Translations under genes and position numbers: made by a program
In this document: positions 3,663 to 46,673 of the stretch, piece by piece
Position numbering within the stretch: the first letter of the stretch is position 1
How the letters are laid out: every line of letters begins with the position of its first letter
Origin: Isoetes taiwanensis
Taxonomy: Eukaryota; Streptophyta; Lycopodiopsida; Isoetales; Isoetaceae
Length of the DNA: 64,000 bases
Direction: 5' to 3'
NCBI GenBank assembly: GCA_021234155.1
Contig: JAJEKV010000014.1
Span: 7,457,563 to 7,521,562 of the forward strand
The notes under the pieces: model-generated
The model's database searches: none
The model's input: the letters and a program-made list of their open reading frames with translations, nothing else
What the model was told of the DNA's origin: nothing

Positions 3663-4037
3663 CTTGTTGCGAGTCTCCAGATCTTGTTGGGGTGGCTGCA
3701 ATGCCTCCTTGTTGGCTGAAATCTCCATAGATCCACTTGATTTGTTGGGATCTTCATCTTGCACTTCATCTGATGCCTTGTTTCCACTGGATTCAATGAT
3801 ATCACTCTCAGAGATTTTTGCAATGCAATCATTCCCTCCATTAGGATCCGAATTTGTTGCTTTCTTCCCAGTTTCAGTGCAATTTTTCAGTGCATCTTTC
3901 ACAGTTGCCTTGTGAAATTGAAATACCTTCTTGCTGCCTAGCATTAAGCTCTTTTCCTCTGCTATTCTCTTCCTTGTAGACATATTTAGATCTCCTTTCT
4001 CACAGAAGCCCGGGCCTTTGCACGCTGAACAAATCAC
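3657..4037 (-). CDS. Unrecognised 126-aa basic/acidic protein or exon
   Basis: Open frame of 126 codons, product rich in Lys, Ser, Asp and Glu with no domain I recognise. It contains a CSACKGPGFC segment near the N terminus, the only hint of a metal-binding pair of Cys. It reads toward the larger minus-strand frame that begins at 1169 and could be an upstream exon of the same gene, but I see no convincing splice donor before its stop, which falls in a CTATT microsatellite. Copy 2 has a shorter version at 33,536-33,877 with a different N terminus because of indels. Moderately likely to be coding because the frame stays open and composition differs from the AT-rich flanks. Confidence 0.4.
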   Translation of the reverse strand: MICSACKGPGFCEKGDLNMSTRKRIAEEKSLMLGSKKVFQFHKATVKDALKNCTETGKKATNSDPNGGNDCIAKISESDIIESSGNKASDEVQDEDPNKSSGSMEISANKEALQPPQQDLETRNKE

Positions 4038-4775
4038 AAGAGTTCCCTCATAATTCTCCTATTTTCGGCACATATTCTTATACTAGTGGTCCTTGTTACC
4101 GTCAGTTCCACAACTCTAGTTTACATTCTACTTTTAGGTGCACGCCCCTCCCAGTAATCCATATGCATATGCCAGCTATATATGCATTTCCATAATTAAC
4201 TACGCTGCCATATCTGGACTGCTCATATTCGGACTGCTCAGAGGTCGTTAGGAAAAACCCTAAACCTGTTCTATTTTTTTCTTTTGCATATTTTCTATAG
4301 TTCAATTGTCAATATCCATATTTTAGTATGCGCCAATCATGCCCTTTCTTTCTCTATATGTTCCTAGGCTATTTCTGCCCTAAAATGTTGTATTCCAACG
4401 AGCCAGAACTCCATTATCCATCACACTTAATGTAAAAAATTACTATATTTGAGAAGTAAAGGCCAAGATTACTTCCTCTCAAATTATTTGAGTATGAACG
4501 GCCTGGGTGCTTGCCTCAAAACTTCCATCCATCTTTTTTGCATTAATATTCCACTTACTGACTTCATTTCCCCTTTAGAATGCTCATGTCCGTGTTATTT
4601 TTCAAATTTTCGGCCCTTTTACACGCCCTTTTATCTTGGGTTCTTCATATGGTCTAGACCATCACTTACCATGGCATATTGAGTTATAATTTGGATTCCA
4701 ATCTTATACATCCTTATTCAATGTTTCTAATGGACAATTTTCTCTTTTTTAATTAAAAATAAAATAAAAAAAAAA
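4038..4775. other. Non-coding flank left of the retroelement palindrome
   Basis: AT-rich, no supported gene. It ends in an A-rich run (about 4,750-4,776) where similarity between the two retroelement arms stops. Confidence 0.4.
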
Positions 4776-4789
4776 ATGGCTCAAATCCA

Positions 4790-5222
4790 CCCACTGGGTC
4801 CATTCGCGCCAAACCCGTCTGCGTCGCGAACGCAAAGCCCTTTCGCGTGAATGGACCCGAGTCCCTTGATTTTAGTCAAAATTGATCCAATTTTTGTACT
4901 TAAAGATGCTAGAATGCTTAGGACTCATCTAGAAATGCAGGGTAGCATTTAATTTTAGTTAAAAATATTAAAATCTAGCTAAGATCAACCCACTCGGATC
5001 GATTCGCGCCAAACCCTTCTACGTCGCGAACGCAGAGCCCTTTCGCGCGAATGGACTCGAGTCAGCCAAATTTCTACTTTTAGATGTCCAATTAGCATGA
5101 AATAAGTTGCTAGCTAGGTTAGAATTGATTCAAATAGACATGTTAGCATCTTACAACCCTTAGAAATGTTTACTAGTGAGCAAAATCAGCTCACTCGGGT
5201 CGATTCGCGCCAAACCCTCCTG
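4790..5222 (+). repeat. Three ~200-bp-spaced GC-rich motifs upstream of element ORF1 (left arm)
   Basis: A motif containing ATTCGCGCCAAACCC followed by GCGTCGCGAACGCA and a reverse-facing TTCGCGYGAATGGACTCGAGTC recurs near 4,790, 4,990 and 5,190 (the third is partial), so the spacing is 200-201 bp. It is rich in CpG within AT-rich DNA and immediately precedes a TATA-like box. The inverted arm carries its own three copies at 14,411-14,900 with the same spacing. Likely a promoter or enhancer repeat of the retroelement; function is inferred from position only. Confidence 0.7.
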
Positions 5223-5316
5223 CACTTCATGGTACCTCATTTGGAGACCCATAGCCTTAGAACAAAGGTCCGTTCGATCAATAATCCTTGTGCATGGAAA
5301 CCTAGGCAGCTCTAGT

Positions 5317-5326
5317 CTATATAAGG
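5317..5326 (+). promoter_or_regulatory. TATA-like box upstream of retroelement ORF1
   Basis: CTATATAAGG lies about 110 bp before the ATG at 5,436 and just after the three GC-rich repeats. The same TATATA box and spacing are kept in the inverted arm (near 14,230 on the minus strand), which supports a real internal or LTR-type promoter. Confidence 0.5.
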
Positions 5327-5435
5327 GGATCTCATTTGTCATTTTCCCTTCGCCAAAAGTGCTCTTACCCTCTTAGGCGATTTTCCAAGCTTCTGTCAGT
5401 TCTTCCAAGCCATCTTCTACATCTATTTCTGCTCA

Positions 5436-6877
5436 ATGGCACCCACGAACTTTGTTCAATGGTACGATAGTGCCAACCACATCCGTGATTTCCCTGCTGA
5501 AGAGGCCTTCCATGTGTTTGATCATCTCTTCGACCTCCATGCAACCCTGACTAGGACCCCTTACTACACTGATATAGTTTGCCAGTATGACCAGCAGATC
5601 TTACCCTGGGAGGTTAGCCTTCCCCCTAGGGGAAGGAAGTGGGTATCCTTAGACTCATTGAGCCAAGCCATGGGGGGGGGGGGGGGGGGGGGGGGGGAGG
5701 AGGGGATCCGAGTCAAAGGGGCAGCTGTGGGCAGGACGAGGGACATGCTTGACTACATGACTTGTAGAGCTCATAGGCATAGGTATATTTCGGCACAAGC
5801 GGCTCTCGCATTATTCATGCAGTACAAGGCAGTCAACAAGGTGGGGGAGCCTTCGATCCAGCCTTTGGACCTAGCGCTACTCGACACAAGAAGGGAGCAA
5901 AGCCACATACATGAGATCAAATCCTCAGAGTACGTGTACCATGGCGCAACATCAGGGGCACTACAGACTGAGCAGGACGATGAGCAGCTTGGGGAAGAAA
6001 ACTCAGATTGGGAGAGCAGGGAAGCAGCAAGAATGGAGAGATGCATAGCAAGACTGAATGACGAGCTTAGGCGGGCTACCGAACTACCAATCGGCATCAC
6101 AGCTTTATCACCAATAGTAATCGAAGGGGAGGAGTACATCTTGGCAAATAACATCCTCAACCTTCTATACTGCCAAGAAGAAGGGCTCAGGATCGACGAA
6201 CTCTTAGCTTAATTGCGAAAGAGCAGCAGAGTGACTGCATCGACTACGCCTATCAGGAAGTCCCAAGGGAAGTAGCGGAGCGGCACTCCTACATAAGGGA
6301 AATGTACCAGCGGCAACAACCAGTCATCCTGGAAGAGGAGTTCCAAGCCATTCAAGACAGGTTGTACAAACCAGGGAAGGGGCTGAGCACCAGCCGAACC
6401 GTCCGATCGCGGAGTATACGCGAGGGGTCCAGCAACTTGGACAGCGCAACTACAATGTGGAGGGACCATGAAGACCTTCTAGCGCTGGACGTCTATGGCG
6501 AAGCAGCTCAGAGGAAGGGCACAGGATCACAAGCGGCAGGACATAGGGGAAGAGCGCTCCGATACTACCTTCCAGTCCTCAGCCAGGGACAAATGATAGT
6601 CTTCTACAAAGAGTTCAGCCCACGAGGAGAGGAGGTCGTGGCGCTCTTAATAGCACTCGCAGGTTTCTGGCAGCACGCCAAGTTGCACAGCAACATGGAT
6701 CACATCATCCTCTTCAAGAGATCCGTGGTACTTTACAGGCTCGACTTCGCCAGGGGCCATTTAAGGGACGCACCAATGATGGTCGTCGCAGCAACAGCGC
6801 CTCCACTCCCTCCACCCCGGATGGCTCGAGCTCTCGAAGGTGGGTCAGCGAGAAACATCCTGCATAACGTAGCTTAG
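5436..6877 (+). pseudogene. Retroelement ORF1 upstream of gag, function unknown (one frameshift)
   Basis: Two open stretches, 5,436-6,212 and 6,302-6,877, are in different frames but together match a single product whose counterpart is on the minus strand at 12,155-14,115; the frame is lost just before 6,212. It starts MAPTNFVQWYD, has an uninterrupted G-rich stretch encoded by 26 consecutive G at 5,672-5,697 (the other arm has only about five), and a Pro-rich end (PPLPPP). I recognise no domain. Sitting upstream of gag in both arms, it is part of the element and not a host gene. It could be an N-terminal gag extension or an accessory protein. The stretch 6,878-7,168 that follows is AT-rich and ends in a TTGCAG acceptor-like site, so splicing from ORF1 to gag is possible. 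Confidence 0.6.
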
Positions 6878-7168
6878 GGCCTCCGACTTAAAGATGTGAA
6901 GAACTTCTTCAAGTCAATAAAGGGTTCTCGAAGATGAACACTTTTATTTCCACATATTATTAAAATGTATAAAAATGACCTCAGTTCCATGTATTACACT
7001 ATGTTTCTCTATAATGTACAAGTCTTGTATATTAATTGCCTTAAATTGTCCTTGACCTATAATTTGAAATTTTAACATGATTTCTTTTATACCTAACAAT
7101 AATTGACTTGTAAATAAGGTTGAATAATGTACAACCTAAGTAACAACATTGATGATCAATACTTGCAG

Positions 7169-8484
7169 CCAGGAACACCGGTTCAGGGTCTCAAGGCCAA
7201 GGCCGACAGCATCAGTGGCAACCTAGGAACTTGTTCGGCCGGGAACACGACGAAGAACAAGACATGACAGTTGAAACAGTAAATGCAAGGTTGGCTCAGA
7301 TGAGGAATCAGATGCAGCAGTTCCTACAGTGGGCAACACCACTAATGCATGCTCAAGAGTATGGACCTCTACCACCACCTCCACCACCTCCAGGAGGTGT
7401 AGACGAAGCCTCTCAGCCAGAAAGGGAAGAAAATCAGGCTGCCGAGAAGGATAGAAAGAGAAAAAGAAGAGGCAGGAGGAGTCCATCACCTTCCAGCTCT
7501 AGCAGATCGAAAACTTTAGGTGGTGGACCCGGCAGTAGCTCCGACAGTGAGTCAGACACATCGCAGGGCAGAAACAAGAACAGAAAGACAGACGACTACT
7601 AAAAGAAGGTAAACAGTGCAATGAGCAATGTCTGGAAGACAAGAAAGCTGGGACAGTTCTGGGGTAAGGACACGTCAGGTATGGAGGCCGAAGCATGGCT
7701 GGATGAGATGGAAGAATTCGGAAACTCGTATGGAATGAAAGACAAGGACATAGGTAAGGTGGCAACGACAAACTTGATAGGGCCAGCCGGAATATGGTGG
7801 AAGGGATACGCAAAATTCAACAAGTTGAGAAGAAACAACTGCAGGTTTAGAACATTCAGCAAGGCATTCTGTAAGCACTATGTCCCAAGATCCCATACCA
7901 ACAGACAAATACAGCAGTTCTATAGGTTGGACCAGGATAATTTGTCCGTGGCTAAGTATACGGAGGAGTTCATGAGGTTGAGATTGAATGTCCCAAGGAT
8001 AACAGAAAGGCAAGCAGTAGATGGGCATATCGAGGGCCTCAATAGCAACATCAAAAGGCTAGTGAGGGCACTCAACCCAAGAACAGTTGGGGAAGCAGAA
8101 GATAAAGCTCTAAGCTTAGAAGAGGCACCAGTGACCCCAGCACTTCCATACAAAGGAAAGATAGCAGGGCAATATCAGACTAGACAGGCGGCCTCTACGC
8201 CAGTAGGAGGCCAGTACCAAGGAAAAGCTCAGGGGAAGTCTTTTGGAGACCGCAAGCCACATGAAGGATCAGGAGGCAAGTCAATTAAATTTCTCTTAGA
8301 CAGCATTCCAAAGGAGAAAAGACAGGAATGCATAGAGAAGAAACTGTGTTTCCTGTGCTTCCAGCCAGGGCACCGAACGCACAATTGGCCTTTCATCATG
8401 CAGGTGGCACTAGCTAAACTTGGGAATCACCAGCTGAGGGAGATGAAGAAGAAGGCGACCAACAGGAACCCCAAGACTTCATAG
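7169..8484 (+). pseudogene. gag: Retroelement gag, one in-frame stop
   Basis: Open in one frame from about 7,169 to 8,484 except for a TAA at 7,600-7,602; the inverted copy has CAA (Gln) there. The N-terminal third holds a Pro run (PPPPPPPG), then basic and Ser-rich tracts. The central part (GKDxSGMEAEAWLDEMEEF onward) is a typical retrotransposon gag capsid region. A knuckle at about 8,347-8,388 reads CFLCFQPGHRTHNW: the C-x2-C-x4-H spacing is right but the last Cys is Trp. Gag would package the element RNA in cytoplasmic particles. No intact start is certain; the frame may begin after a splice acceptor at 7,168. Confidence 0.8.
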
Positions 8485-8587
8485 AAGGTGAGTGTAAAAT
8501 TTGTGCAGCCATTGAGTCAGGGGAGGTTATGAATCAGTCTACAGTCATCTCGGCAGAAGGAACATCGATAGCAAGCCATATATAGTC

Positions 8588-10072
8588 TTGATAGACACAG
8601 GTAGTTCCCATAACTTTGCCTCTCCAAGGCTTACTGCTCTCATGAAGAATAAGATCTTGAAGTCCAAGCCAAGGCCAGTCAGCATGGCAAGTGGCGCCAT
8701 TCGCCACACTAAGGGGAGGAGAATCAATTTTGACATAGATCTTAGTGGAAGCAAGTGGCCGATGGGTGCCGAAGTGATGGACATCGGGAAATATGACCTC
8801 ATAGTAGGAATGGAGTTCCTAAGGCCAGCAAAAGCTATGATAGATTGCGACCACAACGAAATCTCTATGACAGCGCCAGACGGCAATTGATACATAGTAA
8901 AAGGTAAGAAGGTAACTTCAGCTATGCAATGTATCTCTATGAAGCAGTTGAGGAAAAGCATAATAAGAAACAGGGTGGATTACATCTTGAGGCTAGAGGC
9001 AGTTGACCCAAGTAAAGCAAAGGGAAGTGAGTCAAGTGGAAATCAGTTGCCTAAGCCAATAGCAAGGCTCATTAAGGAGTTTAATGATGTATTCACGGAT
9101 GAAATCCATCAATTACCACCTTATAGGGGTGTAGAGTGTGAAATCACACTAGCTCCAGATGCTAAGCCTACTGGCAAGGCACCTTATAGGATGGGCACTC
9201 CAGAGCTGGTAGAGCTCAAGAAGCAGTTGCAAGAACTGCTTGAGCTCGGATTCATAAGAGCAAGCGTGTCTCCTTTTGGAGCACCCATCCTTTTCGTCAA
9301 GAAGAAAGACGGAAGTCTAAGGATGTGCATTGATTATCGTCAGCTTACTAAGCAAACGATAAAGAATAAATATGTTCTGCCAAGGGCAGACGACTTGATG
9401 GACCAGCTCCAGGGAGCAAAAGTCTTCTCCAAAATTGACCTAAGGTCGGGATACCATCAGATAAGGATCAAGGAAGAAGACATCCACAAAACTGCCTTCG
9501 GAACGCGATATGGGCACTATGAGTTCATGGTAATGCCTTTCGGCTTATCGAATGCCCCAGCAACCTTCATGCGCTTGATGAATAATATCTTCATAGAATT
9601 CTTAGATGAATTTGTCATCGTATTTTTCGATGACATCCTAGTCTATAGCAAGACCATAGAAGAGCATTGTCAGCACTTGAGAAGGGTTTTGGAGAAGCTA
9701 ATGTGGCATCAATTGTATGACAAGCTTTCTAAGTGCCACTTTGCAACAGGCCGAGTGGAGTATTTGGGTCATGTGGTGTCATCTCAAGGGATCTCCACTA
9801 ATTCGGCAAAGATTGAAGTCATAGTGGATTGGCCGGCACCAAGGAATATAAGAAGCTTCATCGGCTTGGTAGGGTATTATCGGAAGTTCGTGAAGGACTT
9901 CGCTAGGTGGGTGTCCCCTCTGTCGGACCTCACCAAGGATAAGAAGGTGAAGGATTGGACAAAGCATTGGCTCGAGAATGTCCAAGCCTCCTTTGAGAAG
10001 CTCAAAGAGGCACTAACCACAGCACCGGTCCTCATCCTACCGGCGCCTAGCCGTCAGTCTACCTCCCTATGA
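8588..10072 (+). pseudogene. pol: Retroelement pol: aspartic protease and reverse transcriptase
   Basis: One frame, interrupted only by a TGA at 8,888-8,890. The protease starts with IDTGSSHNF (catalytic DTG) at 8,590. RT follows: [12 protein letters not shown] and [14 protein letters not shown] lead to the catalytic [10 protein letters not shown] at about 9,630-9,660, then EYLGHVVS and [11 protein letters not shown] of the connection region. The frame ends by reading into LTR sequence after about 10,042 (last 10 or so residues foreign). RNase H and integrase are absent, so the copy is non-autonomous. gag is in a different frame, as is common with Ty3/gypsy frameshifting or through decay. Product would be a polyprotein copying element RNA into DNA. 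Confidence 0.9.
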
Positions 10073-10192
10073 GTCTGAGCCTTGGGTAGGAGCTCTCATA
10101 TTTTACGGCATATGTTTATCTCTGTTGTAGCTATGGATATATGGATGTGCTACCCCTCGGGGTGATATGATGTGTTGTTATTGCTAGTTCTG
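10043..10192 (+). repeat. LTR fragment at the centre of the palindrome
   Basis: About 150 bp matches the reverse complement of roughly 16,998-17,148, which lies inside the long LTR. It is in the orientation expected for the left-arm element's own 3' LTR, but both its ends are internal to the LTR, so it was left by deletion and rejoining. It ties the left arm and the LTR at 16,803-18,458 to one family. Confidence 0.75.
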
Positions 10193-11322
10193 ACACCTTC
10201 CTTCTTATAATGCTTGAAGGTCTCCCTTTCCTTATCTGTTCTTGCCTCTTTGGAGAGGCTTGCCCATACTTCTTTAAAGTCACCGTCTGATGGCAACGTT
10301 TCTTCAATCCTCTTGCCATACTCACTTGAGAGAGTCGATATGGTATTGCAATGAGTTCTTGTATCAAATGGCCTCCTCGAGAGGGCATCTGCGACTACAT
10401 TCAATTTGTCAGGCTTGTAGACTATTTCGAAGTCGTACTCTTCGAGAAATTCCATCCACCTCCTTTGTCTTAGATTTAGGAGTGGTTGCGTGAAGATGTA
10501 CTGGAGACTTTGATGATCTGTATCTAATTGAAACTTTCTTCCCAACAAATAGTATCTCCAGATTCTCAAGGCCCTCACAATGGCCAAAAGCTCTTGGTCA
10601 TGAGTCGAGTAGCATTGCTCTACATCATTCATCTTCTTGGAGTCGTATGCGACTACCCTTCCCTCCTACATGAGGACTGCTCCGGTTGCTAGCTTGCTAG
10701 CATCTATTGCCACAAGCTTATCCTTGCTTGGATCTGGTAGGATGAGAACCGGTGCTGTGGTTAGTGCCTCTTTGAGCTTCTCAAAGGAGGCTTGGACATT
10801 CTCGAGCCAATGCTTTGTCCAATCCTTCACCTTCTTATCCTTGGTGAGGTCCGACAGAGGGGACACCCACCTAGCGAAGTCCTTCACGAACTTCCGATAA
10901 TACCCTACCAAGCCGATGAAGCTTCTTACTTCGCCCATATTCCTTGGTGCCGGCCAATCCACTATGACTTCAATCTTTGCCGAATTAGTGGAGATCCCTT
11001 GAGATGACACCACATGACCCAAATACTCTACTCGGCCTGTTGCAAAGTGGCACTTAGAAAGCTTGCCGTACAATCGATGCCGCCTTAGCTTCTCCAAAAC
11101 CCTTCTCAGGTGCTGACAATGCTCTTCTATGGTCTTGCTGTAGACTAGAATGCCATCGAAAAATACGATGACAAATTCATCTAATAATTCTCTGAAGATA
11201 TAATTCATCAAGTGCATGAAGGTTGCTGGGGCATTCGATAAGTCGAAAGGCATTACCATGAACTCATAGTGCCCATACCGCGTTCTGAAAGCAGTTTTGT
11301 GGATGTCTTCTGGTAGGCTCAT
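10193..11322 (-). pseudogene. pol: Reverse transcriptase (C-terminal half) and RNase H, inactive
   Basis: One frame from 11,322 down to about 10,193 with a single TAG at 10,666-10,668 where the codon was probably CAG. The RT part keeps [17 protein letters not shown] but the catalytic pair is FFDG instead of FFDD, so polymerase activity should be lost. RNase H follows ([40 protein letters not shown]), matching Ty3/gypsy RNase H. The frame ends at the junction with the LTR fragment and no integrase follows. The N-terminal RT is deleted: the sequence passes straight from gag to RT near 11,320. Confidence 0.88.
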
Positions 11323-11862
11323 CCTATCAAGTTTGCCGTTGCCACCTTACCTATGTCCTTGTCTTTCATTCCATAAGAGTTTCTGAATTCTTCCATCTCA
11401 TCCAGCCATGCTTCGGCCTCCATACCTGACCTGTCCTTACCCGAGAATTGTCCCAGCTTTCTTGTCTTCCAGACATTGCTCATTGCACTGTCTACCTTCT
11501 TTTGGTAGTCGTCTGTCTTTCTATTCTTGTTTCTACCCTGCAATGTGTCTGACTCACTGTCGGAGCTACTGCCGGATCCGCTATCTGAGGTCTCCGATCT
11601 GGTAGAGCTGGAAGGATATGGACTCCTTCTGCCTCTTTCTATCCTTCTCGGCAACCTGATTTTCTTTCCTTTCTGGCTGAGGGGCTTCGTCTATACCCCC
11701 TGGAGGTGGTGGAGGTGGTGGTGGAGGTCCATACTCTTGAGCATGCATTAGTGGTGTTGCCCACTGTAGTAACTGCTGCATCTGATTCCTCATCTGAGCC
11801 AACCTTGCATTTACTATTTCAACTGTCATATCTTGTTCGTCGTCGTGTTCCCGGTCGAACAA
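11319..11862 (-). pseudogene. gag: gag N-terminal fragment fused to RT by deletion
   Basis: Matches the left-arm gag from its Pro run to [10 protein letters not shown] and then joins RT sequence near 11,320. A frameshift near 11,630 separates the two open pieces. In this arm the codon that is TAA in the left arm is CAA, so the two arms decayed independently. The 11,863-12,154 stretch upstream is the AT-rich spacer between ORF1 and gag, as in the left arm. Confidence 0.8.
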
Positions 11863-13572
11863 GTTCCTAGGTTGCCACTGGTGCTGTCGGCCTTGGCCTT
11901 GAGACCCTGAACCGGTGTTTCTGGCTGCAAGTGTTGGTCATCAATGTTGTTACTTAGGTTATACATTGTTCACCTTATTTACAAGTCAATTATTGTTAGT
12001 TATAAAAGAAATCATGTCAAAATTCCAACTTATAAGTTAAAGACAAGTTATGGCAATTAATATACGAGAGTTATACATTATATCGAAGTATGTAGTAATA
12101 CATGGAACTGAGGACATTTTTATACATTTTAATAATATATGAAAGCAAAAGTGTTCATCTTCGAGAACCCTTCATTGATTGAAGAAGTTCTTCACATCCT
12201 TGAGTCGAAGGCCCTTGCCGACGTTCCGCAAGATGTTCCTGGAAGATCCACCTTCGAGAGCTCGATCCATTTGAGGTGGAGGGAGTGGAGGTGTTGTTGC
12301 CGCAACGACCGTCATTGGTGCGTCTCTCAAGTGGCCCCTGGTGAAGTCGAGACTGTAGACGACCACGAATCTCTTGAAAAGGATGATGTGATCCGTGTTG
12401 CTGCTCAACTTGGCATGCTGTCCGAAGCCTGAGAGCGCTATGAGGAGCGTCACGGCTTCCTCTCCTCGCAGGCTGAACTCCTTGTGAAAGACTATCATCT
12501 GCAACTGGAAGATAGTATCGAAGCGCCTTTCCCCTTGCTATGGCCTGGGTACCTGTGCCCTTTCTTTGAGCCGCTCCACCGTAGACGTCCAATGCTAGGA
12601 GGTCTTCATGATCCCTCCATGTGGTGGTTGCACTATCCAGATTGATGCTGCTGGATCCCTCCCACATACTTCGCGATCGAACAGTTCGGCTAGAGCTCGG
12701 TCCCTTCCCTGTTTATACAACATGCTTTGGGTTTCTTGAAATTCTTCCTCTGGGATGATTGGCTGCTGTCGATGATAAATTTTCCTTATGTGTTCGTAGG
12801 CGGCGATGTCGGACATCGTCTCGCCGGCATAGGAGTGTCGCTCTGCTACTTCCCTTGGGACTTCCTAATAGGAGTAATCGATGAAGTCGCTCTGTTATTC
12901 CTTTGCAATTAAACCTAAGAGCTCATCGATTCTGAGCCCCTTTTCTTGGCAGTGTGGGAGGTTGAGGATGTCATTTGCCAATATGTACTCTTCCCCTTCA
13001 ATTACTATCGGCGATAGAGCTATGATGCCGATTGGTGGTTCGTTGGCCCGCCTGATGTCATCATCATGCCTTACTATTCGCCTCTCCATTCTTGCCGCCT
13101 CTCTGCTCTCCCAATCTGGGTTTTCTTCCCCTAGCTGCTCATAATCCTGCTCAACCTGGAATTGCTCCCGATGCCGTGCCATGGTACTCGTACTCTGCTG
13201 ATTCAATCTCATGGATCTGTCCTTGGTCTATTCTTGTATTGAGTGGTGCTAGGCCCAAGGGCTGGATCGAAGGTTCCCCCACCCTGTTGACGGCCCTGTA
13301 CTGCATAAATAAGACGAGGGCCGCATGCACCGAAACATACCTATGCCTGTGGGCCTTACAACTCATGTAATCTGACATATCCTTCGTCCTGTCCCACAGC
13401 TGCCCCTTGACTCTAGATCCTCCCCCAATGGCTTGGCTCAGCAATTCTAGAGATACCCACCTTCCTCCTGCGAGGAGAGGAAGTTAGCTAAGATCTGCTG
13501 GTCATACTAACAAACTATATCAGTATAGTAAGGGGTTCTGGTCAGGGTTGCATGAAGGTCAAAGAGATGATC

Positions 13573-13730
13573 TGTAACGTTCCTAACCGACATGCCCTTA
13601 ACCAACTGGGCAAAACCGTCTAGACTTTTATGAGTAGTCGCTTCTACCCATTTATGCCGGTGTCTCGGGAACGCCCCACAGGCACATTCAAGGTTCGAAT
13701 ACTCGAGCAGTCTACCATGGGCCCGTTACA
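13573..13730 (-). repeat. TRIM LTR (3' LTR in element orientation)
   Basis: 158 bp, TG...CA ends with 7-bp terminal inverted repeats; appears identical to 13,869-14,026. Confidence 0.95.
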
Positions 13731-13854
13731 GTCTCTCCCACTAGAACTATGCTTGTCCTCGAGCATCCAAGGCTATACCATGTCACAATGATTACCAAGT
13801 CTTTGCAAATTACCCATGTATATAGGCACCCATGGAGACTCGAACTCGAGACCT

Positions 13855-13866
13855 GCTCTGATACCA
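13855..13866 (-). other. TRIM primer-binding site for initiator tRNA-Met
   Basis: Minus strand reads TGGTATCAGAGC, the 12 bases complementary to the 3' end of plant initiator tRNA-Met, two bases from the LTR edge. Confidence 0.93.
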
Positions 13867-13868
13867 AC

Positions 13869-14026
13869 TGTAACGTTCCTAACCGACATGCCCTTAACCA
13901 ACTGGGCAAAACCGTCTAGACTTTTATGAGTAGTCGCTTCTACCCATTTATGCCGGTGTCTCGGGAACGCCCCACAGGCACATTCAAGGTTCGAATACTC
14001 GAGCAGTCTACCATGGGCCCGTTACA
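13869..14026 (-). repeat. TRIM LTR (5' LTR in element orientation)
   Basis: 158 bp, followed by the TGATC target duplication at 14,027-14,031. Confidence 0.95.
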
Positions 14027-14410
14027 TGATCAAACACATGGAAGGCCTTTTTAGCAGGGAAATCACGGATGTGGTTGGCACTGTTGTACCATTGAACAAA
14101 GTTCGTGGGCGCCATTGAGCAGAGATAGATGTAGAAGATGGCTTGGAAGAATTGACAAAAGCTTAGAAAATCGCCTAAGACGGTGAGAGCAAGTTTGGTG
14201 AAGAGAAAATGGCAAATGAGATCCCCTTATATAGACTAAGGCTGCATAGGTTTCCGTGCACAAGGGTTCTTGATCAAACAGGCCTTTGTTCTAAGGCTAT
14301 GGATCTCCAAATAAGGTAACATGAAGTGCAAATTTAAGTAAAACAAGTCAAGGAATACTACATGGCAATTTGTTGGGTCAAATTCGGGGAATTCATGGTC
14401 AAACTAGGTC

Positions 14411-14900
14411 GACTCGGGTCACTTTGCACGAAAGGGACTTGCGTCGCGAACACAGAGGCATTTGGCGCGGAGTGACCAAAGTGGGCTGATTTCTGTGCAA
14501 AACAAACATTTCTAAGGGTTGTAAGATGCTAAAATGCCTATTTGGATCAATTCTAGACTAGCTAGCAGCTTGTTTCATGCTAATTAGACATCTAAAAGTG
14601 TAAGTTTGGGCGACTCGGGCCACTTCGCGCGAAAGGGGTCTGCGTCGCGAATGCAGGGACATTTGGCGTGGAGTGACCGGAGTGCGTCGATCTTGGCTTA
14701 CTTTTTGATATTTTTAGCAGAATTTAAGTGCTACAATGTATTTCTAGATGATTTCTAAGCATTCTAACATCTTTTAGTACAAAAATTGGATCAATTTTAC
14801 CTCAAATCAAGTGACTCGGGTCACTTCGCGCGAAAGGTGTCTGCGTCGCGAATGCAGAGGCGTTTGGCGCGGAGTGACCGGAGTGGGTCGATCTCGACCT
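14411..14900 (-). repeat. Three ~200-bp-spaced GC-rich motifs (right arm)
   Basis: Near 14,411, 14,611 and 14,812 the plus strand reads GACTCGGGYCACTTCGCGCGAA (or close) then GCGTCGCGAAYGCAGRG and GGCGYGGAGTGACC. These are the inverted counterparts of the left-arm motifs. They lie between the H3-like ORF and the TATA box of ORF1. The arm-to-arm similarity ends at about 14,910. Confidence 0.75.
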
Positions 14901-15124
14901 AATTTTTGATTTTTTTGAGACAAAATTTTATACAGATTAAGCAATTAGGAGTATTCTAACTATGATGCAAAAGATTATATTACAATTCAATTTGTATAAG
15001 AACACTTGTATGTTAATAAGAGATTAATTTACAGAAAAAAAGGACACTTTTATAGATATGGAGTAGAAATGTACAGACAAAAGCTTATATGTATATAATT
15101 TAGTTTATGTATAAAATTGGCTCC

Positions 15125-16239
15125 TCAAGGCTTCTCCTTGCGGATTCTCCTCGCCAAGTGGAGGTCCTTGGGCATGACTGTCACCCGCTTGGCGTGGATT
15201 GCACAGAGGTTGCCTTTTTCAAAAAGCTGCACCAGCTCCGCTTCTGCCGTCTCCTGCAGGGACCGGACCGTCAGTGGGGTCACCCTGTAATTTGTCCAGA
15301 ACTCCTGCATGATTTCTCGCAGAAGTCGCCCGAATGGCGCCTTCCTGATGAGGAGATTAGTGCACTGTTGGAAGTGCCTAATCTCCCGGAACACATGGGC
15401 GTGCTTAGAGTTGGACCCGTGGTGCACCTTCTTTGGCGGCTCTGGTCTTGGTGGTGGCGGCTTGGACTAGTTCTTCGGCCGCCCACCTCCAACATACTTT
15501 TGTACATTTTGCTTGCAATACCAGTCATTGTACCTCTTCCATCTGCGGAGGTACTCTTGGTACACCTTCTTGCGACGCTGGAATTCACGATCTTGTTTTA
15601 ACATGAATTCCCGCTCGCCCACCTTCTGCTTCTTGATCACCTTAGGTGCTTAGGCCACTTAGGGTATGGTGGGCGGGTGTCGGGGTTTGATGGCTCCCCG
15701 GCATCTTCTTCAGGCTCTTCTTCCATTTGCCCTGCTCCTTCACTCTCCTCCTCTTCCTCCTCCTCATCGGTAGGGTCTCGATGAGGTTCCTGAATGTGGA
15801 CCGTCCCTCTTGGGCGGTCCTGGTCCCTCTTGGACCGCTTCTCTCTCCGTCTCGCCTCCTTCTTCCTCTCCCTCTTCTTCCTCTGGGCCCTCTCCTCGGG
15901 CCACTCTGCTACCTTCTCCTTGCCCTTCTTTTTGCCCGACGTGCCAACCTCCTGCTCCTGCTGGTGCTGCTCCTGTTGCTCTTGCTGCTGCTGCTCCTTC
16001 TCCTAGTCGGACGACCGACCGAAGTGGACGGTCTCGTCCGTCCGCTGTGTCTCCACGGAGGAGCTGCTCTGGGCTTCCTCCTGGGAGGCGTGGAAAGTGT
16101 CGTCTGTGGAGCTAGACGACTCTCCCTCCCTCCCCCGTCGAAGGTGCTCAGGCACTTGTTTTCCTCCACCCGCCGCCTTTGCCATCGAGGGTGTGCGCCC
16201 GGGGCTGTATTTTCTGGCTGTGCATTTGGTGTGCGCCAT
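15125..16239 (-). pseudogene. Histone-H3-like protein with long inserted tail, inside LTR element (copy 1)
   Basis: The frame starts MAHTKCTARKYSPGRTP, aligning residue for residue with the H3 tail (K4, R8 and K9 kept; S10 is Tyr, K14 is Arg). Its C terminus (15,427-15,125) is an H3 histone fold: [47 protein letters not shown] and LARRIR. Between them lie about 250 extra residues: Ser-rich, a Gln/Glu run, basic repeats, an acidic run and a Pro-rich linker. The REIRHFQ..TNLLI helix resembles CENH3, yet loop 1 has H3 length. No introns. Defects: TAG at 16,003-16,005, TAG at 15,467-15,469 (CAG in copy 2), and one likely 1-nt deletion near 15,650. It lies 550 bases downstream of the primer site of the adjacent LTR. 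If expressed it should enter nucleosomes; that role is inferred. Confidence 0.8.
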
Positions 16240-16790
16240 GTCTTATGGTTAAGCAAACTGATTACGTTAAGTTGGTTATCAAGAAAGGAGGTTTAAGCAA
16301 GGTTAGGGAGAAAATGGGGTGGCAAGAAGATATTAAAAAAGGAAGATGATCTAGGGAATATTCTCCTACCATTAATAGCCCTATTAATTAGCCCCCCTTA
16401 TTAATTACCCCACTATACATACTTATTAATGTATGGCTGATGCTGTATTATACTATGAAATTCGAATTTTTCTAATAGTTTGAAGTGTCAATTATGAATT
16501 TATGTCATTTTTCACCCGGGTCTCGGATTGGGATGATTCTTCGACCCATTTTGGGTGAGATGCCGATGCATAATTTCAACTCCAATTTTATTAGAATGTT
16601 AATTTGAGTCATTCTTTTTTCCCCATCTAACAACTTAGCCTATTCTTATGGACCCACTACCTAGGAGAAAAATTTCCCCCCTATTTTCGAGGTTCCATTG
16701 TGGAAATTTTCATTCCACACCCTATTAGGCCTGTTAGACTACTTACTAGGGACATGGTCAGTGCTAGTTCTTGGTCAACCAAGAACATCG
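16240..16790 (-). other. Leader between primer-binding site and H3-like ORF
   Basis: About 550 bases without a supported gene, the size of a retroelement 5' leader. Contains a short C-rich run near 16,391. Confidence 0.5.
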
Positions 16791-16801
16791 ATCTGATACC
16801 A
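16791..16801 (-). other. Primer-binding site of the long LTR element
   Basis: Minus strand reads TGGTATCAGAT directly inside the LTR edge, a slightly decayed initiator-tRNA-Met primer site. It shows that the element's internal region lies to the left, toward the H3-like ORF. Confidence 0.75.
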
Positions 16802-16802
16802 T

Positions 16803-18458
16803 TGTGACGCTCCCTACAAAATATACGGCGCCCGACCGTACATTCCGTAGAAAATCTCCCATCCAGTCCTTCGACCGCACGGGCCCTCCATCTATCCTGC
16901 ACTCCAGGGTATCCCTAGTGCGGGAAGGGGACACGAAGGTGTCTTGGGCGCCCTTCCCCTATGGGCTCCTATCACAGCGGAAGCATAAACAACGTCAGAA
17001 CTAGCAATAACAATACATCATACTACCTTGAAGGATAGCACATCCTCATATCCATAGCTACAACAGAGATAAATATATGCCGTAAAACGTGAGAGCTCCT
17101 ACCCAAGGCCCAGACTCATGGGGAGGTAGACTGACGGCTAGGCCTCAAGAAAGAGCAGACCGAGTCATAACAATGGCGGGGCTGGCTATAGACAATGGCT
17201 AGGGTTGACCAATCCATCCGCCCCTCCTGTGCATACTTTACAGATAGGCTAAATTGGGCTCTAGCATGACTCTAGCCTTCCGGATACGCAATCTCATGGC
17301 ATCACCCATCAAGACTACTCCGAGTTGCATCTCCCGGGTCCGTTGAGGCAGGAAGGGTTGCATATCCCCTTTCCCGGGGTCTAGAGGTTCCTCGGGCGGC
17401 TAGAGAATCGTGACGACACATGATTCATCCCCGACTTAATCCCCCGAAACAAGAGCCAGGCCAACACCTGCAGCTCTTGAGAGGCAGGGCGACACCATTG
17501 CCCTAGGAGGTGTCAGACCCATGTCCGGCCCACATGATATGACCGGCCATAAGCTTAGCCCGCTATGGGGTCCCCAGTAGCCACGCTCAGCAGGGACCCT
17601 CCCTCTGTATCTCCTCTAGCACCGTTATGTCGTGCTGAGTCACATCATAGCCCCCGTAGCCCGGTGGGTTCCTATGCACAGGCCGCATAATAATAGGAAC
17701 TAAAGGGTCTAACTAGGAGCATTACTAAGTAAGGCTACTAGGTCTCTACCCCAATACAAGAGGAGCAAACATGATCAACTATCATCACACAACTTCATAT
17801 CATGATAATCATCAGAATAACATCTAACCTAATCATACATATCTAACTTACAGTTAGGTTCGTTGATTAGGGTTCAAGATGTTGAATAAGGGTTCTAGGA
17901 TGGCTCTACTCTAGATGCGAAATACTAACTCATCTGGAGTGCTAACTTCCAGACGAACTACTAAGAACACTACTCCAAATACCTGCTCCCGAAGCACTCC
18001 CTCCCATTCCTGGCATCTCCATCCATGGTACTCGAAGTTGTCGAAGCCGCGCTCACTCCAAGATCGTACACGCACTATGGGGGCTGCTGCACTAGGCTAT
18101 GCCACAACAAGCGGCCTTCAAAGCGGGGTTTCGAAAAGCGAAGAAGGTTCCCAGGGTGTTAGGGCCAGGAAAAGAGGTCTAAAGTTAGGGTTTAGGTTAA
18201 TATAGGTTAGGGTCCACATGGGATGACACGTGGCTCCACATGGCTCCAATGGGACATGGCCATGTGTCGGTTGCCCAATAGGATAAGGCTATGTGGAAAA
18301 TGGGCCTTATCCTAAGGTTATCTAAGTTATATACTTAACTTAGATATGCACTCACGCCACTTCCTAAGGTATACAAGGCTACGAAGTAGACTTGTATAGT
18401 GACGTAACAGAACCGAAAATATACGTATTTATAGCATATATTTCCCTGGAACGTCACA
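16803..18458 (-). repeat. Long terminal repeat, ~1.66 kb (5' LTR of the right-arm element)
   Basis: Begins TGTGACG and ends CGTCACA on the plus strand, giving the TG...CA ends and short inverted repeats of an LTR, with a primer site abutting the left edge. A 150-bp piece recurs at 10,043-10,192. No gene inside. The second copy is at 46,674-48,326. Confidence 0.8.
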
Positions 18459-20690: not shown

Positions 20691-22044
20691 ATGATTCACC
20701 CGATGGCTATGATTCCGGCATCTTTTGGAAACCCTAGTTGCATTTCTGTGGATCAAACAACTGCATTTTGGACGCCCGAAAAGGTAGACCCTAAAGCTGT
20801 CTTGTTTCCTTTGATCTTTTTTGCATTTTTTTGCCTTTATCCGGCTCATGCATGCTTCTTTTTGTAGGTCGAAATGAGGTTTGCAAGCACTATTGAGGAA
20901 TTTCAGGTTTACAGATTGCTTCCAAATGAAGGCAGAGATCCAGAAACTTTAACTTGGGCTGATTGCCCCACATCAGATTTTCTTAGTGTGTGGAATCGTG
21001 AAGTGAAAGACAATAAGATCAAGCTCCACCAGGTGAGGCCAGAATTTGCAGATGATTTGCATGATTTGGTACACAAGGTTTATCGAAAAGGCTTAAAAAT
21101 AAGGAAGCTAGGGGCGGTCTTTGCTAGAGCTTTTGCATGGCGGCATACTCCAATGGCACTTGCTCATCCTGCTAAATTTATAGTGAATTGGGCTAGATTT
21201 GCATGGAATAGAATGCGACTTTCATGAGAAATACCCAAAAAAAGCGATATGGAAGAAATAAATTTGAAGAATGTTGCTTTTCGCTATTTCATCTTTAGAG
21301 AGGCGAGACTTAAATGTCTGAATGATGCGCTTGCTTTATTAGAGCTTGAACTCAAAGAAAAGCAAACTGAATTGGTCGATTGTGAATGGAATTTTGCAAG
21401 GGTATGACCTTGCGGCTACATCAATTTCATTAGATATACGAGAAATTAAGAACGATCTACAAAGCTTGAAAGATATTTGCCCAGATGAAGATGCGACTTT
21501 GAAGCAAAAATCGATGAAGAATGTGCACTAGGTCTTTCCACGCTCACCATTTTGAAGAAAAAAAAGAGGCGGACATTGGCCCGGATATAGAAGCACGGAT
21601 AAGACTAAGTGCATTAATTACTTATAAGCGGGAAAAGCAAGATGATCTGAAAACCAAACTAGCAAACCTGCAACATTTGAGGTCTTCATTCCTTACCACC
21701 ACATTGATCAGGCCTTCTCCTGGAAATTGGACCGTTGTTGACGATACAAGTGGATGTGTAGTTTGTGGCATGGCATTTAGTATCAATTTTGCCATGCATG
21801 TACAGCTCCAATGTGGACACAAGTTCCACTTATGGTGCTTCCAGAAGTGCATGCAGAACTTGCAATGTAATGTTTGCAACCTAGAGCGCCAATGAGACTT
21901 GTATTGGTTTGGGTTCACGTAAATTTTGTACCTAACGTGGAGGATGAAGAAGATACTGAGACTGTGGCCACTAAAGGTACATGTAGTCATATTAACGATG
22001 AAGTTGTTGAAAATGACATTAAGGTCTTAGAGGATTACATATAG
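20691..22044 (+). CDS. RING-finger protein encoded in the DNA transposon (copy 1, frame errors)
   Basis: Exon 1 (20,691-20,783) begins MIHPMAMIPASFGNPS; an 85-bp GT-AG intron (20,784-20,867) leads to exon 2, which reads VEMRFASTIEEFQVYRLL. In this copy the frame is lost near 21,225, 21,280, 21,375 and 21,515 at places where copy 2 has CAG or CTG. The C-terminal part is clean here: CVVCGMAF, then CGHKFHLWCF and CNVC form a C3H2C3 RING finger at about 21,755-21,875. Middle of the protein is predicted coiled coil (Leu/Glu/Lys rich). A RING domain suggests an E3 ubiquitin ligase; target unknown. See the copy 2 entry for the better frame. Confidence 0.75.
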
Positions 22045-22420
22045 ATTTGGTTTCAAATGGTTCTAATGTAATTTTTTTTTTTTTTTGTTAAGTGCCAAAT
22101 ATGCCATGTGGTCACTTTGAACATGCCTCAGGCGCTAGGACATGCCAACAGGGTAAGAATGCCATGTGGCGCGCCTCAATCATGCCACGTGGCTAGAAAA
22201 TGACATTAAGGTCTTAGAGGATTACATATAAATTTGACCACATGGTTGATTTGGTTTCAAATGGTTCTAATGTAATTTTTTTTTTGTTAAGTGCCAAATA
22301 TGCCATGTGGTCACTTTGAACATGCCTCCAGCGCTAGGACATGCCAACAGGGTAAGAATGCCATGTGGCACGCCTCAATCATGCCACGTGGCTAGAAAAT
22401 GACATTAAGGTCTTAGAAGC
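22014..22420 (+). repeat. ~190-bp direct duplication after the RING gene
   Basis: GACATTAAGGTCTTAGAGGA occurs at about 22,014 and 22,202 and in shorter form at 22,401, so the end of the RING gene and its 3' flank are duplicated. Each unit holds a T run and a CCACGTGG (G-box core) motif. Shared with copy 2 at 51,893-52,290. Confidence 0.85.
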
Positions 22421-23830: not shown

Positions 23831-26800
23831 TCATGTCTTTGCTAGAGGTAAATGGTACACATTATCTTCACCTAAAACCAAGTAACTCTCGTTTGCAGAT
23901 ATTACGAGATGTGAATAGCAATTCACATCTGGCATATGGCTTAACAGCTCGTATCTACCTTCGCCAATATACTTGTAGAACTTGCCGGTTAGAATGACCT
24001 CTTGTCTACTGAATTTTGATCCCCACTGATCCTTGAATGCTATTTCTACCATGTGCTTGGGTTCTGTGCATTTTACAATCCAGAAATCAACATTCTCTGC
24101 ATTGTTGGCTTCTGCATTAATGACAAAATTGTCTCCAACTTGTACAAGTTCTGCTTTCCACTGGTTATCTCCTTCATATTGCACATGAGTGACTGGTGTA
24201 TCCTCCTGCATTATCTCAGGCTTCAATTCAGAATATGTATAACGTTTCAATCTCTTTACGTGCTTGCACCTATTCCATAATCCCATCCAGCAACTAGTAC
24301 AAAAGCAAGATAGAGGTCTGTGGGCCACCATGGTAGGTCTGTTTTGGCAGATTGGCCTGATGGTATGAATGTTTTTTGTGCCCTTCAAGGTGTCACAGTC
24401 ATATGTCAATTCCCTGCACACCTCACCTAACTTTATGAGCCAAAATACCCTGTGCAGGACATTGATCACAATTAGTAAAACGCACACACATACAAGCATG
24501 TTTGTGAAGTCCTAGAATTTGATCATACCTACTGATTAAAGTGTCTTTGACACCTCTTTTCACTTGGAAATACCAAATCAAGAATTGTACAACATCCTCC
24601 GCATTCCTTAGAGGCGTGCCGTCCCTCTTTAACATTTCACTTGTAAGTATCCTCTTTTATGGCACCGGCAAAGTCATGCTCTCCTGCCATGGCAAGATGC
24701 AAAAGAAATTCCACGAAATCTTTATTGCATTAGATTGATAAAATCTTCCTAAGTGATAGAAGGCTCACGGAGGACTTGAATTGCTTGACTGCGCAACCAT
24801 CGGACCAAAATACATGATTTGAATAGCATATACCTTTTTCCTTCAAGTAGTTGGCATGCTTCCGAGGCGGTGTTGTGCGAATAAGCTATCATGCTTTTCG
24901 ATCATCATCGATATGTAGAAGTGGGTCTCTTTCACCAACTTCGATCGCCAATTAGAAGGTTTGGAGTCTCGACTTTCTTGGCATGTCGTAAGTAATGTGC
25001 ACTAGTATAGAACATTGATCATTCCTCCAATGCATTGTATGCGGATTTCTGCTGAATTTTGAGCGTATAGTTTTCCATAAAGTCTATAACGGATACAACG
25101 GTATCCTTTGGGAATGTTTGCAAACATTCCTTAAACTTTGAAATACTTTTGCCACCTTGCCGTATAGTTATGGGGAATGAATTGTTTGATAATTTGCATC
25201 GGCATGCTCCATAAATTCATGTAATGATGTGCTCTTGTAAGCCAACTTCATAACATCCTTCGTGGTGACTCTTGGCTTCCCCTTTGCTTGTATCCTTTAC
25301 ATAGGTTTTACATTTATGCGCAATATAAGAGCAAATTTGATGTCAGCATATTACCTTGGAAAAGCAACATTTACTCTTATTTATCCTAAACTTATCCCTG
25401 GCCATAATTTACTTGCCTACCCTATATGCATGTCTTATCCCTATGCAGGCCATAATTTACTTGGCTACCCGGTATGCATGTCTTATCCCTATCTGTGTAG
25501 CAACACTTACGGCGACAACCCCTATCAATACTTAAGCACATGCAACACTTACGTGACAACCCCATCAATACTTAGGCACATGCAACCTTATAAGATCAAA
25601 TAACCTACGATTTAACTAGCTAAAGATAAACCACCACAAGATAAATTAAACCACCACAAGATAAATTAGCTAAATTTAAACCACCACAAGATAAATTAAA
25701 TCATCTCTTCATGGCTAATCTAAACCATATCAAATAAAAGTCATAATCAAATTAAGGTAATCAATGCATGCAACTAATGGAATGCTAACCTTCTCGAAGT
25801 TCTTCCAATCAAGCTTAATTGACTTTGCTTCTCTTTGGGACATCTTTGGAATGATTTCGGACCACAAGCATTGCAGTCCATGGTCAAACAAGTAGACTTA
25901 TACCAATCTGCGGTTTCATCCTTAGGACACACCATAGTTTTCCACATTTCACTTACACTATTGAAAGTATGATTGCTTCATTTGCACATATTGGGCTGGA
26001 CCACGGACATTACATTTGCATGTACACTGGAACCATGGGTGTTAGAATCTTGTCTTAGCTTGTTGATTGCCTGCCTAACAAATTCCATTCTCATGTGGTA
26101 TATGCAGCAACATGTTTCCCTCTCTTTAAGCCTTTTCACAAACTTGGGCTTCAAAGTCTCAAACAACACGAGACCTATTTTCATCTACGGATATTGATGC
26201 TTAAATTTCTTATAAAATGTGACCTGAAATGTAATAAACAATATAAGAATGAGAGAAGCTTTTTATTGTGAAAACAAGGAAGCAATTACATACCTGACTC
26301 TCTTCCAAGTAATGAAGTGGCTGCGGGTTATCCGACTTAGCAATCTTATCACCGTTATTATTCCTTCTCAATTTCATAAACCTGCCTTTTATTTTGAATG
26401 AGACCCTAGTTTGAAATCCAAAAGTTGTATACCTTTTCGCGATCTTCATCCGATAGCCGTCGGATCTGCATTTCCTTTTGAACATAGACCACGGGCCTCC
26501 AAATTGATAAACTTTCTCTGTCCAATCGCGGCATACTTTGCCTTTCTCCTCATGTTCAAAACCTTTGCAACATTTGTCGGTTGGTAGATCCATTAACGAC
26601 CATCATCAAGGTGGATGCCGGTGCTTGATTGATGTCACGTGTCCTAGCACGTTTACTAGCTTGAAGAGTCTCCTTCATATTCTCAACAACATGTTGATAT
26701 ACTTGTAATTTCCTGTTTCCAATGATCCCAAACTCATGTAGGTGTTCGGCTGCTCTGGATATGATTTCTTTTCTATCAGCAGGATGTATCTTCAGGCATA

Positions 26801-44992: not shown

Positions 44993-46113
44993 TCAAGGCT
45001 TCTCCTTGCGGATTCTCCTCGCCAAGTGGAGGTCCTTGGGCATATTTGTTGCCACCCTTGGCGTGGATTGCCATGAGGTTGCCCTTTTCAAAAGCTGCAC
45101 CGGCTCTAAAACGCCGTCTCTGCGAGGGGACCCGGACCCGTCGGTGGGGTCACCACGTAATTTGTCGAGAACTCCTGCATGATTTCAGCGAGTCGCCCGA
45201 ATGGCGCCTTCCTGATGAGGAGATTAGTGCACTGTTGGAAGTGCCTAATCTCCCGGAACACATGGGCGTGCTTAGAGTTGGACCCGTGGTGCACCTTCTT
45301 TGGCGGCTCTGGTCTTGGTGGTGGCGGCTTGGACTGGTTCTTCGACGCCCACCTCCAACATACTTTTGTACATTTTGCTTGCAATACCAGTCATTGTACC
45401 TCTTCCATCTGCGGAGGTACTCTTGGTACACCTTCTTGCGACGCTGGAATTCACGATCTTGTTTTAACATGAATTCCCGCTCGCCCACCTTCTGCTTCTT
45501 GATCACCTTAGGTGCTTAGGCCACTTAGGGTATGGTGGGCGGGTGTCGGGGTTTGATGGCTCCCCGGCATCTTCTTCAGGCTCTTCTTCCATTTGCCCTG
45601 CTCCTTCACTCTCCTCCTCTTCCTCCTCCTCATGGTAGGGTCTCGATGAGGTTCTGATAATGGACCGTCCCTCTTGGGTGGTCCTGGTCCCTCTTGGACC
45701 GCTTCTCTCTCCGTCTCGCCTCCTTCTTCCTCTCCCTCTTCTTCCTCTGGGCCCTCTCCTCGGGCCACTCTGCTACCTTCTCCTTGCCCTTCTTTTTGCC
45801 CGACGTGCCAACCTCCTGCTCCTGCTGGTGCTGCTCCTGTTGCTCTTGCTGCTGCTGCTCCTTCTCCTAGTCGGACGACCGACCGAAGTGGACGGTCTCG
45901 TCCGTCGGCCAGCTATGTCTCCCGCGGAGCTGCTCACGGGCTTCCTCACAGGGGCGTGGAAAGTGTCGATGCGTGGAGGCTAGGCGACTCTCCCTCCCCT
46001 CCCCGTCGAAGGTGCTTTCGAGGCACTTGTTTTCCTCCACCCGCCCGCCCTTTGCCGCCAGGGTGTGCGCGAGGGAACATATTTTTTCTGGCATTGCATT
46101 TGGTGTGCGCCAT
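44993..46113 (-). pseudogene. Histone-H3-like ORF (copy 2)
   Basis: Counterpart of 15,125-16,239. The linker keeps [14 protein letters not shown], so the TAG seen at 15,467 in copy 1 is CAG here, and the frame is open from 45,384 through [20 protein letters not shown]. Downstream the histone fold is frameshifted at CTG/CAG positions (near 45,190 and 45,125) that are intact in copy 1. The TAG at 45,867-45,869 is shared by both copies. Taken together, the two copies suggest that the underlying gene is less damaged than either copy alone. Confidence 0.75.
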
Positions 46114-46673
46114 GTCTTATGGTTAAGCAAACTGATTACGTTAAGTTGGTTATCAAGAAAGGAGGTTTAAGCAAGGTTAGGGAGAAAATGGGGTGGCAAG
46201 AAGATATTAAAAAAGGAAGATGATCTAGGGAATATTCTCCTACCATTAATAGCCCTATTAATTAGCCCCCCTTATTAATTACCCCACTATACATACTTAT
46301 TAATGTATGGTGATCTTTTCAGATTATACTATGAAATTGATTTTTTCTAATAGTTTGAAGTGTCAATTATGAATTTATGTCATTTTTCACGGGGTCTCAG
46401 TTGGGATGATTCTTGACCCTATTTTGGGTGAGATGCCGATGCATAATTTCAACTCCAATTTTATTAGAATGTTAATTTGAGTCATTCTTTTTCCCCCATC
46501 TAACAACTTAGCCTATTCTTATGGACCCACTACCTGGGAGAAAAATTTCCCCCTATTTTCGAGGTTCCATTGTGGAAATTTTCATTCCACACCCTATTAG
46601 GCTGTTAGACTACTTACTAGGGACATGGTCAGTGCTAGTTCTTGGTCAACCAAGAACATCGATCTGATACCAT

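Follow-up and report, generated by a model that had tools for sequence, protein, structure and literature searches.

That a histone H3 gene can sit inside a mobile element is already known from fungal hAT DNA transposons. In Pyrenophora tritici-repentis these elements carry 26 H3L genes with insertions in the N-terminal tail and a complete match to neither H3 nor CenH3; ESTs exist, the authors raised altered chromatin as a possibility, and the copies, which are near-identical and thought to be recent, were suspected of drifting (accessible text of PMC3538342). H3-like copies are also carried by hAT elements of Pseudocercospora, Cercospora and Sphaerulina, with 784 of them in P. fijiensis, where the additional copies have been inactivated and are mostly truncated (accessible text of PMC6710886). 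The accessible parts of these two papers do not show selection on the carried H3 copies (PMC3538342, PMC6710886). Among viruses, H3 is encoded by xenomavirus, a prasinovirus and sylvanvirus, all of them DNA viruses, according to the portions available of a review of viral histones (PMC9145170).

Two further systems are related in a more general way. Transposable elements of Arabidopsis encode anti-silencing proteins that act as a DNA-sequence-specific system (PMC5735166, in the part available). Furthermore, the available text of a screen of LTR elements in 121 angiosperm genomes reports 15 extra domains, with histone absent from those that this text names, and describes Gypsy elements of Phalaenopsis that carry an m6A demethylase domain as an extra ORF (PMC9289625). 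Our search of an open-access library found no paper on a histone gene in a retrotransposon; the available text of the viral-histone review has no word starting with 'retro' (PMC9145170), and no word beginning with 'histone' occurs in a review on giant transposons (PMC6431247).

Here we analyzed 64,000 nucleotides of the lycophyte Isoetes taiwanensis (the window), in which an H3 variant with a long insertion lies within an LTR retrotransposon. The element resembles the fungal hAT elements in that it carries and multiplies an H3 gene; unlike in those, the gene sits in a chromovirus before ORF1 and gag, includes a conserved insert domain, and has a dN/dS near 0.07-0.09 across diverged copies. The element frames scanned with Pfam gave no match to a hAT domain, and H3 sits between the LTR and primer site on one side and gag/pol on the other. 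With the viral cases it shares a single, parasite-encoded H3, but their carriers are DNA viruses, and the accessible review text does not mention such an insert (PMC9145170). The Arabidopsis anti-silencing proteins are likewise encoded by a transposable element and counter silencing, which is one use proposed below for the element H3, but that system is not a histone. The Phalaenopsis elements are also a Gypsy lineage that gained an additional protein domain; theirs, however, is an enzyme and not a histone, and it resides in another host.

The window and its H3 locus

A direct repeat of 29.9 kb, 92% identical, makes up the window (1-28716 and 29875-58617; 28,195 aligned bases with 1,277 mismatches and 768 gaps, 572 of them of one base), and the H3 locus is therefore present twice. 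The features of the window, with their basis in brackets, are as follows.

16803-18458, minus strand: 5' LTR of 1,656 bp, TGTGACG...CGTCACA (repeat ends; LTR matches upstream of H3 in 15 of 20 other copies)
16792-16801, minus strand: primer binding site TGGTATCAGA (motif search beside the LTR)
16240-16791, minus strand: leader, from primer site to H3 gene (16300-16800 served as query of the leader-only search)
15640-16239, minus strand: H3-like N-terminus (MAHTKCTARK), followed by the Gln/Glu-rich, basic and acidic segments of the insert (frame translation, codon phase)
15470-15649, minus strand: conserved insert domain that precedes the fold, YQEYLRRW..YNDWYC region (frames, dN/dS 0.091)
15128-15466, minus strand: Pro-rich linker and H3 histone fold, with stop codon at 15127-15125 (Pfam, PDB, dN/dS, structure match)
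14407-14928, minus strand: imperfect tandem repeat array with units of about 200 bp, between H3 gene and ORF1 (repeat comparison)
12800-14330, minus strand: ORF1 region, interrupted by a small TRIM-like element (frames, copy comparison)
11323-12500, minus strand: gag region, damaged (frames, copy comparison)
10150-11322, minus strand: remnants of reverse transcriptase and RNase H (Pfam RVT_1, RT_RNaseH)
10045-10194, plus strand: LTR fragment of 150 bp, 91% identical to 17143-16994 of the minus strand (sequence match)
4748-10041, plus strand: second copy of the same element, 5'-truncated, with ORF1, gag, protease and RT (frames, Pfam)
46674-48326, minus strand: LTR of copy B, ending at terminal motifs (motif ends)
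46663-46672, minus strand: primer site of copy B (site search)
44993-46113, minus strand: H3 gene of copy B, with more damage than in the first window copy (frame reading)

Inverted ends of 7 bp, TGTGACG and CGTCACA, bound the 1,656-bp LTR, and the adjacent primer binding site TGGTATCAGA, which we take to be of the initiator tRNA-Met type, lies about 550 bp before the H3 start, so that the 1.66-kb LTR and the spacing given by an earlier sequence-only reading of this locus were borne out. Sites of the TGGTATCAGA type were found three times in the window, compared to 0.16 expected by chance, and TGGTATCAGAGC was present at the primer site in six of seven other element copies inspected.

The start codon of MAHTKCTARK lies at 16239 on the minus strand, as judged by frame translation of the window copy. 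At the other end of the gene, Pfam Histone (PF00125) matched 15128-15427 of the minus strand with an E value of 9e-28 and 97 bits (cut-off 26), which confirms the full C-terminal H3 fold proposed earlier, and H3 chains of the PDB matched it at E about 1e-29. This fold is 63% identical to canonical H3 and 65.5% identical to host H3 (L062). The same reading had placed tail and fold in a single frame. This does not hold for the window copy, where the frame from 16239 is interrupted by a stop codon at 16005-16003 and closes at 15639-15637, the reading frame changes near 15640 between insert and fold, the fold lies in a different frame from the start, and an extra stop occurs at 15469-15467; it does hold for three copies elsewhere in the genome (L029, L030 and L048). 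Both H3 copies of the window are thus broken. The 29.9-kb repeat may be a real duplication, two haplotypes or noisy assembly, so that some of these reading-frame breaks may be assembly errors. The halves of the repeat are near-identical at 19-20 kb despite many one-base gaps elsewhere.

The plus-strand copy at 4748-10041 is truncated at the tandem-repeat array and for this reason has neither LTR nor H3 gene; its gag (7621-8484) gave Pfam matches to Retrotrans_gag and Ty3_capsid. We also noted several features beside the element. The TRIM-like element inserted in ORF1 (13572-14026, minus strand) consists of two identical 159-bp repeats around 137 bp and contains a TGGTATCAGA site at 13857-13866. 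A 199-bp tandem unit occurs in about two copies at 22044-22417 and at 51923-52291, and a 124-aa frame at 21521-21895 (plus strand) weakly matches a RING finger, with a score that does not reach the Pfam cut-off. A 222-aa ORF at 23831-24499 was considered as a host gene, a reading that was rejected as a Pfam search gave no match. Scans of the window for tRNAs and Rfam families found none, a sequence search with gag did not find relatives, and a viral-contig scan found none.

Dispersed copies and the class of the element

The genome searched for copies comprised 1.66 Gb in 1,110 contigs. With the H3 DNA as query, 45 matches were obtained among the best 40 scored of 1,958 candidates, and 43 of these lay on 30 contigs other than that of the window, some being pieces of one copy. 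We read 20 copies with 10 kb around them, namely the best-scoring ones after the window's own two. LTR sequence, from 61 bp to full length, was present upstream of H3 in 15 of the 20, gag was present downstream in 12, and in all 11 copies with both the order was LTR, H3, gag. Within the 10 kb read, 5 of the 20 were without LTR and 8 without gag, and L009, L018 and L025 showed extra fragments out of order. The flanks differed at the four LTR starts compared, and these are therefore separate insertions. One copy (L019/L038) holds both LTRs, the 3' LTR in part, and these are 95.4% identical over 804 bp, the one LTR pair on which dating is based; in L014/L037 a 3' LTR was not found in the stretch read. 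Copies that were read were either best-scoring or picked for long frames and are not a random sample. In L037, a 438-codon frame at 3845-5158 looks Copia-like by eye and lies near another chromovirus fragment, a case of nested insertions.

In order to avoid selecting copies by H3, we also searched with the leader only. Among the best 40 scored of 1,995 candidates, 37 carry H3 sequence downstream (35 of 38 when the window's own two are left aside), a count that applies to the leaders closest to the window's and not to a random sample. Twenty of the 40 (the window's two included) were matched by eye to loci known to have H3. For the remaining 20, each read over 1.35 kb, 17 had H3 sequence, which was nearly the whole gene in 11 and partial in six (L040, L041, L043, L053, L056 and L057). 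An H3 match was not found over 1.35 kb after the leader in L044, L047 and L052, of which L044 keeps the first H3 codons despite having no overall match. Family copies without the ORF, or a lone retrocopy, would have spoken against the sequence-only reading; instead, H3 sequence follows nearly all of the closest leaders, and the dispersed, colinear copies together with the purifying selection described below place the H3 variant and its long insertion in an LTR retrotransposon, as that reading proposed.

The coding domains of the element follow the Ty3/gypsy order of gag, protease, RT, RNase H and integrase, as pieced together from several copies. Sibling copies have a chromodomain (PF00385) at the C-terminus of the integrase (L038, E 1.7e-10; L037, E 2.4e-9), and the element is therefore a chromovirus; in the window itself a chromodomain was not seen, the frames of the minus-strand copy ending in RNase H. 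Named relatives of the RT are mostly from land plants (best 120 of 7,974). Three sequences resembling matK, a streptophyte gene, were also found in the genome, two of them with stops, and indicate a streptophyte host. Thus, the element shares with plant chromoviruses its LTR, a primer site of tRNA-Met type, gag, protease, RT, RNase H, integrase and chromodomain, but differs from them in having an H3 gene before ORF1 and gag.

The encoded protein, selection on its gene and a second H3 family

Using the fold as query, all 150 scored matches (the best 150 of 8,866 first-look candidates) were 79-99% identical to it, and 126 of them had no internal stop. According to counts taken from hand-copied numbers, 50 of the 150 copies have open frames of 250 aa or more and 22 have one of 350 aa or more without a stop, the frame being shorter than 350 aa or a stop being present in the other 128. 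Many copies are frameshifted. Among eight copies picked for long frames, only L029 and L030 hold the whole gene from Met through the fold in one frame (373 and 372 aa, starting with MARTKQTARK and MAQTKQTARK, respectively); in four (L031-L034) the tail is read in a frame other than the long one, and in two (L035 and L036) the long frame includes a tail-like stretch with the start missing. L048 provides a third whole frame, which begins with MARTKCTARK and takes in the complete fold, and L023 has 327 open codons running from the tail into the fold. Altogether, the intact frames of three copies encode 372-373 aa, made up of an H3-like start, about 260 new residues and an H3 fold.

The codons of the tail are present in 20 of 22 aligned copies, where they encode K4 in 20/20, R8 in 19/20 and K9 in 19/20, in line with the H3-like start noted previously in the window copy. 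Residue 5 is Cys, not Gln, in all 20 of these aligned copies (Gln in L029 and L030), and 19 of the 20 have Tyr or Phe instead of Ser at residue 10. Residues 10-35 of the H3 tail, including K27, are replaced by about 260 residues, in which K27 has no alignable counterpart, and the match of L029 to H3 chains resumes at residue 262-286 (alignment inspected for one chain). The insert contains basic stretches and, before the fold, some 60 residues that are well conserved (YQEYLRRW..YNDWYC); for the insert of L029 Pfam gave only a weak Sec16 match below the cut-off. The fold of L029 matches PF00125 with 104 bits, and the top Foldseek matches of the predicted structure, an AlphaFold model of medium confidence (mean pLDDT 66.5), are nucleosomal H3.

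We analyzed divergence by codon position in 22 copies, with the codon phase taken from four reference copies that agreed except in ten columns of one pair. Divergence at positions 1, 2 and 3 was.126,.093 and.261 in tail and insert, and.100,.085 and.281 in the fold. For the fold, the median dN/dS of 20 copies was 0.074, with finite values in 158 of 190 pairs; for the pre-fold domain, that of 12 copies was 0.091, with finite values in 59 of 66 pairs. All finite values of both were below 1. These sets comprise copies with an open fold only, the most diverged pairs being dropped as saturated, and with median dS values of 0.87 and 1.2, near saturation, the ratios are rough. The third-position excess and the low dN/dS together indicate that the insert is coding and that the H3 gene was kept by purifying selection while the element multiplied.

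Ordinary H3 genes number 15 in the genome and are 96-97% identical to canonical H3 over 136 aa. The search that returned these also scored 135 other matches, with 69-85% identity to canonical H3, dozens of them in frames of 400-567 aa. Three of these copies were read (L059-L061) and represent a second family, whose N-terminal domain differs from that of the first; in L061 the fold shares 87% identity with host H3. L059, the only copy with flanks, has an LTR-like end and primer site before the H3 gene and an ORF1-like frame after it. This frame is 21-33% identical to the first family's ORF1 in weak matches (best E 3e-9), and 68 bp at the LTR/primer junction show 82% identity to one first-family copy. 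Judged by these matches, H3 appears to occupy the same position in the elements of at least two related families. The tree does not join the two H3 families, but joining them is not rejected (p-AU 0.34), and they may stem from one capture or from two.

Long H3 proteins also occur in protein databases. P0118, P0071 and P0037 have a similar build, with an H3-like start, roughly 250-300 residues and a fold, and like P0017, P0087 and P0026 they are long H3s whose inserts or N-terminal parts differ from those of the element. Some belong to clusters of several members, and the 90% cluster of P0026 has 156. The parts before the fold in seven long-insert H3 proteins match none of the loci read in this genome. 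Proteins such as P0118 and P0026 perhaps represent H3-carrying elements in other genomes.

Possible roles of the element H3

We consider it probable that a chromovirus lineage captured H3 and keeps it as its first gene, and that the variant enters nucleosomes and changes or marks chromatin. This account builds on the observed arrangement of the gene, its dispersal, the intact frames of some copies, purifying selection and the chromodomain of sibling integrases. A Ty3/gypsy chromovirus lineage would have captured an H3 gene, presumably from its host, and placed it between the primer site and ORF1/gag. The predicted product starts with ARTK-C/Q-TARK, has about 260 residues in place of roughly residues 10-35 of H3, and ends in a complete H3 fold. 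Conservation of the fold suggests that the protein may pair with host H4 and enter nucleosomes; the H3 residues that contact DNA and H4 presumably are kept, as they look to be in an unscored alignment of element folds. The altered tail, which keeps the K4 and K9 sites and loses Ser10, could then change or mark chromatin to the advantage of the element. One use would be to counter host silencing. In another, the tail would be read by the integrase chromodomain, such that new copies land in chromatin that holds the variant. The earlier suggestion that an element-encoded histone targets insertion or remodels chromatin accordingly stays a hypothesis. A more specific version, in which ARTK-x-TARK methylated at K9 is the ligand of the element's own integrase chromodomain and marks integration sites independently of host heterochromatin, as an epigenetic address of its own, is conceivable but doubtful.

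A role in the particle, where a histone-like protein would bind or compact element cDNA or serve nuclear import outside host nucleosomes, seems unlikely to us. It would fit the position of the gene upstream of ORF1 and gag as well as the basic stretches of the insert; however, the whole H3 fold and the H3-like start are conserved, and a mere DNA compactor would need neither.

The idea of a passenger, in which host sequence was taken up a single time and has since multiplied with the element without serving a function, perhaps like the H3 of fungal hAT elements, is strongly disfavoured, and we give it very little weight. Many element copies are indeed frameshifted, and in the accessible fungal reports the Pyrenophora authors suspected drift and the Pseudocercospora copies are mutated and mostly truncated (PMC3538342, PMC6710886). 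Yet dN/dS is 0.07-0.09, the third-position excess extends over both fold and insert, and H3 with long open frames is retained in a second family of elements as well.

The sequence-only reading had raised the centromeric H3, CENH3, and with it a targeting of the element to centromeres. The CENH3 identity is not supported by the comparisons made here, and we regard this explanation as highly improbable. The likeness of the element fold to CENH3/CENP-A lies in the motif REIRHFQ..TNLLI, which resembles Arabidopsis CENH3 in the approximate sequence used here. In contrast, loop 1 of the element fold is as long as that of host H3 and 1-2 residues shorter than in three CENH3, and the window fold is 49-51% identical to these three CENH3 (two of them approximate plant sequences) compared to 65.5% to a host H3. 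Furthermore, the element folds group together (100/99) and apart from CENH3 in a tree of few columns with weak deeper forks, and the 43 other genome matches are spread over 30 other contigs.

Finally, that a retrocopy of host H3 landed beside an unrelated LTR at this locus only is scarcely tenable, even with both window H3 copies broken: it is refuted by the colinearity of dispersed copies, many of which have the same order and similar spacing, with different flanks at four LTR starts, and by a fold only 65.5% identical to host H3.

Chromoviruses read histone marks through chromodomains. By maintaining an H3 of its own under strong selection, a chromovirus lineage would combine the reader with the substrate that bears the mark, as in the capture and nucleosomal use of H3 that we favour. 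H3 is among the most conserved proteins, and in this parasite it is greatly changed, with its first residues and its fold held. A defined protein would make the reshaping of host chromatin by a mobile element testable, and an abundant element family with its own H3 suggests that a genomic parasite may alter or mark the chromatin it inhabits.
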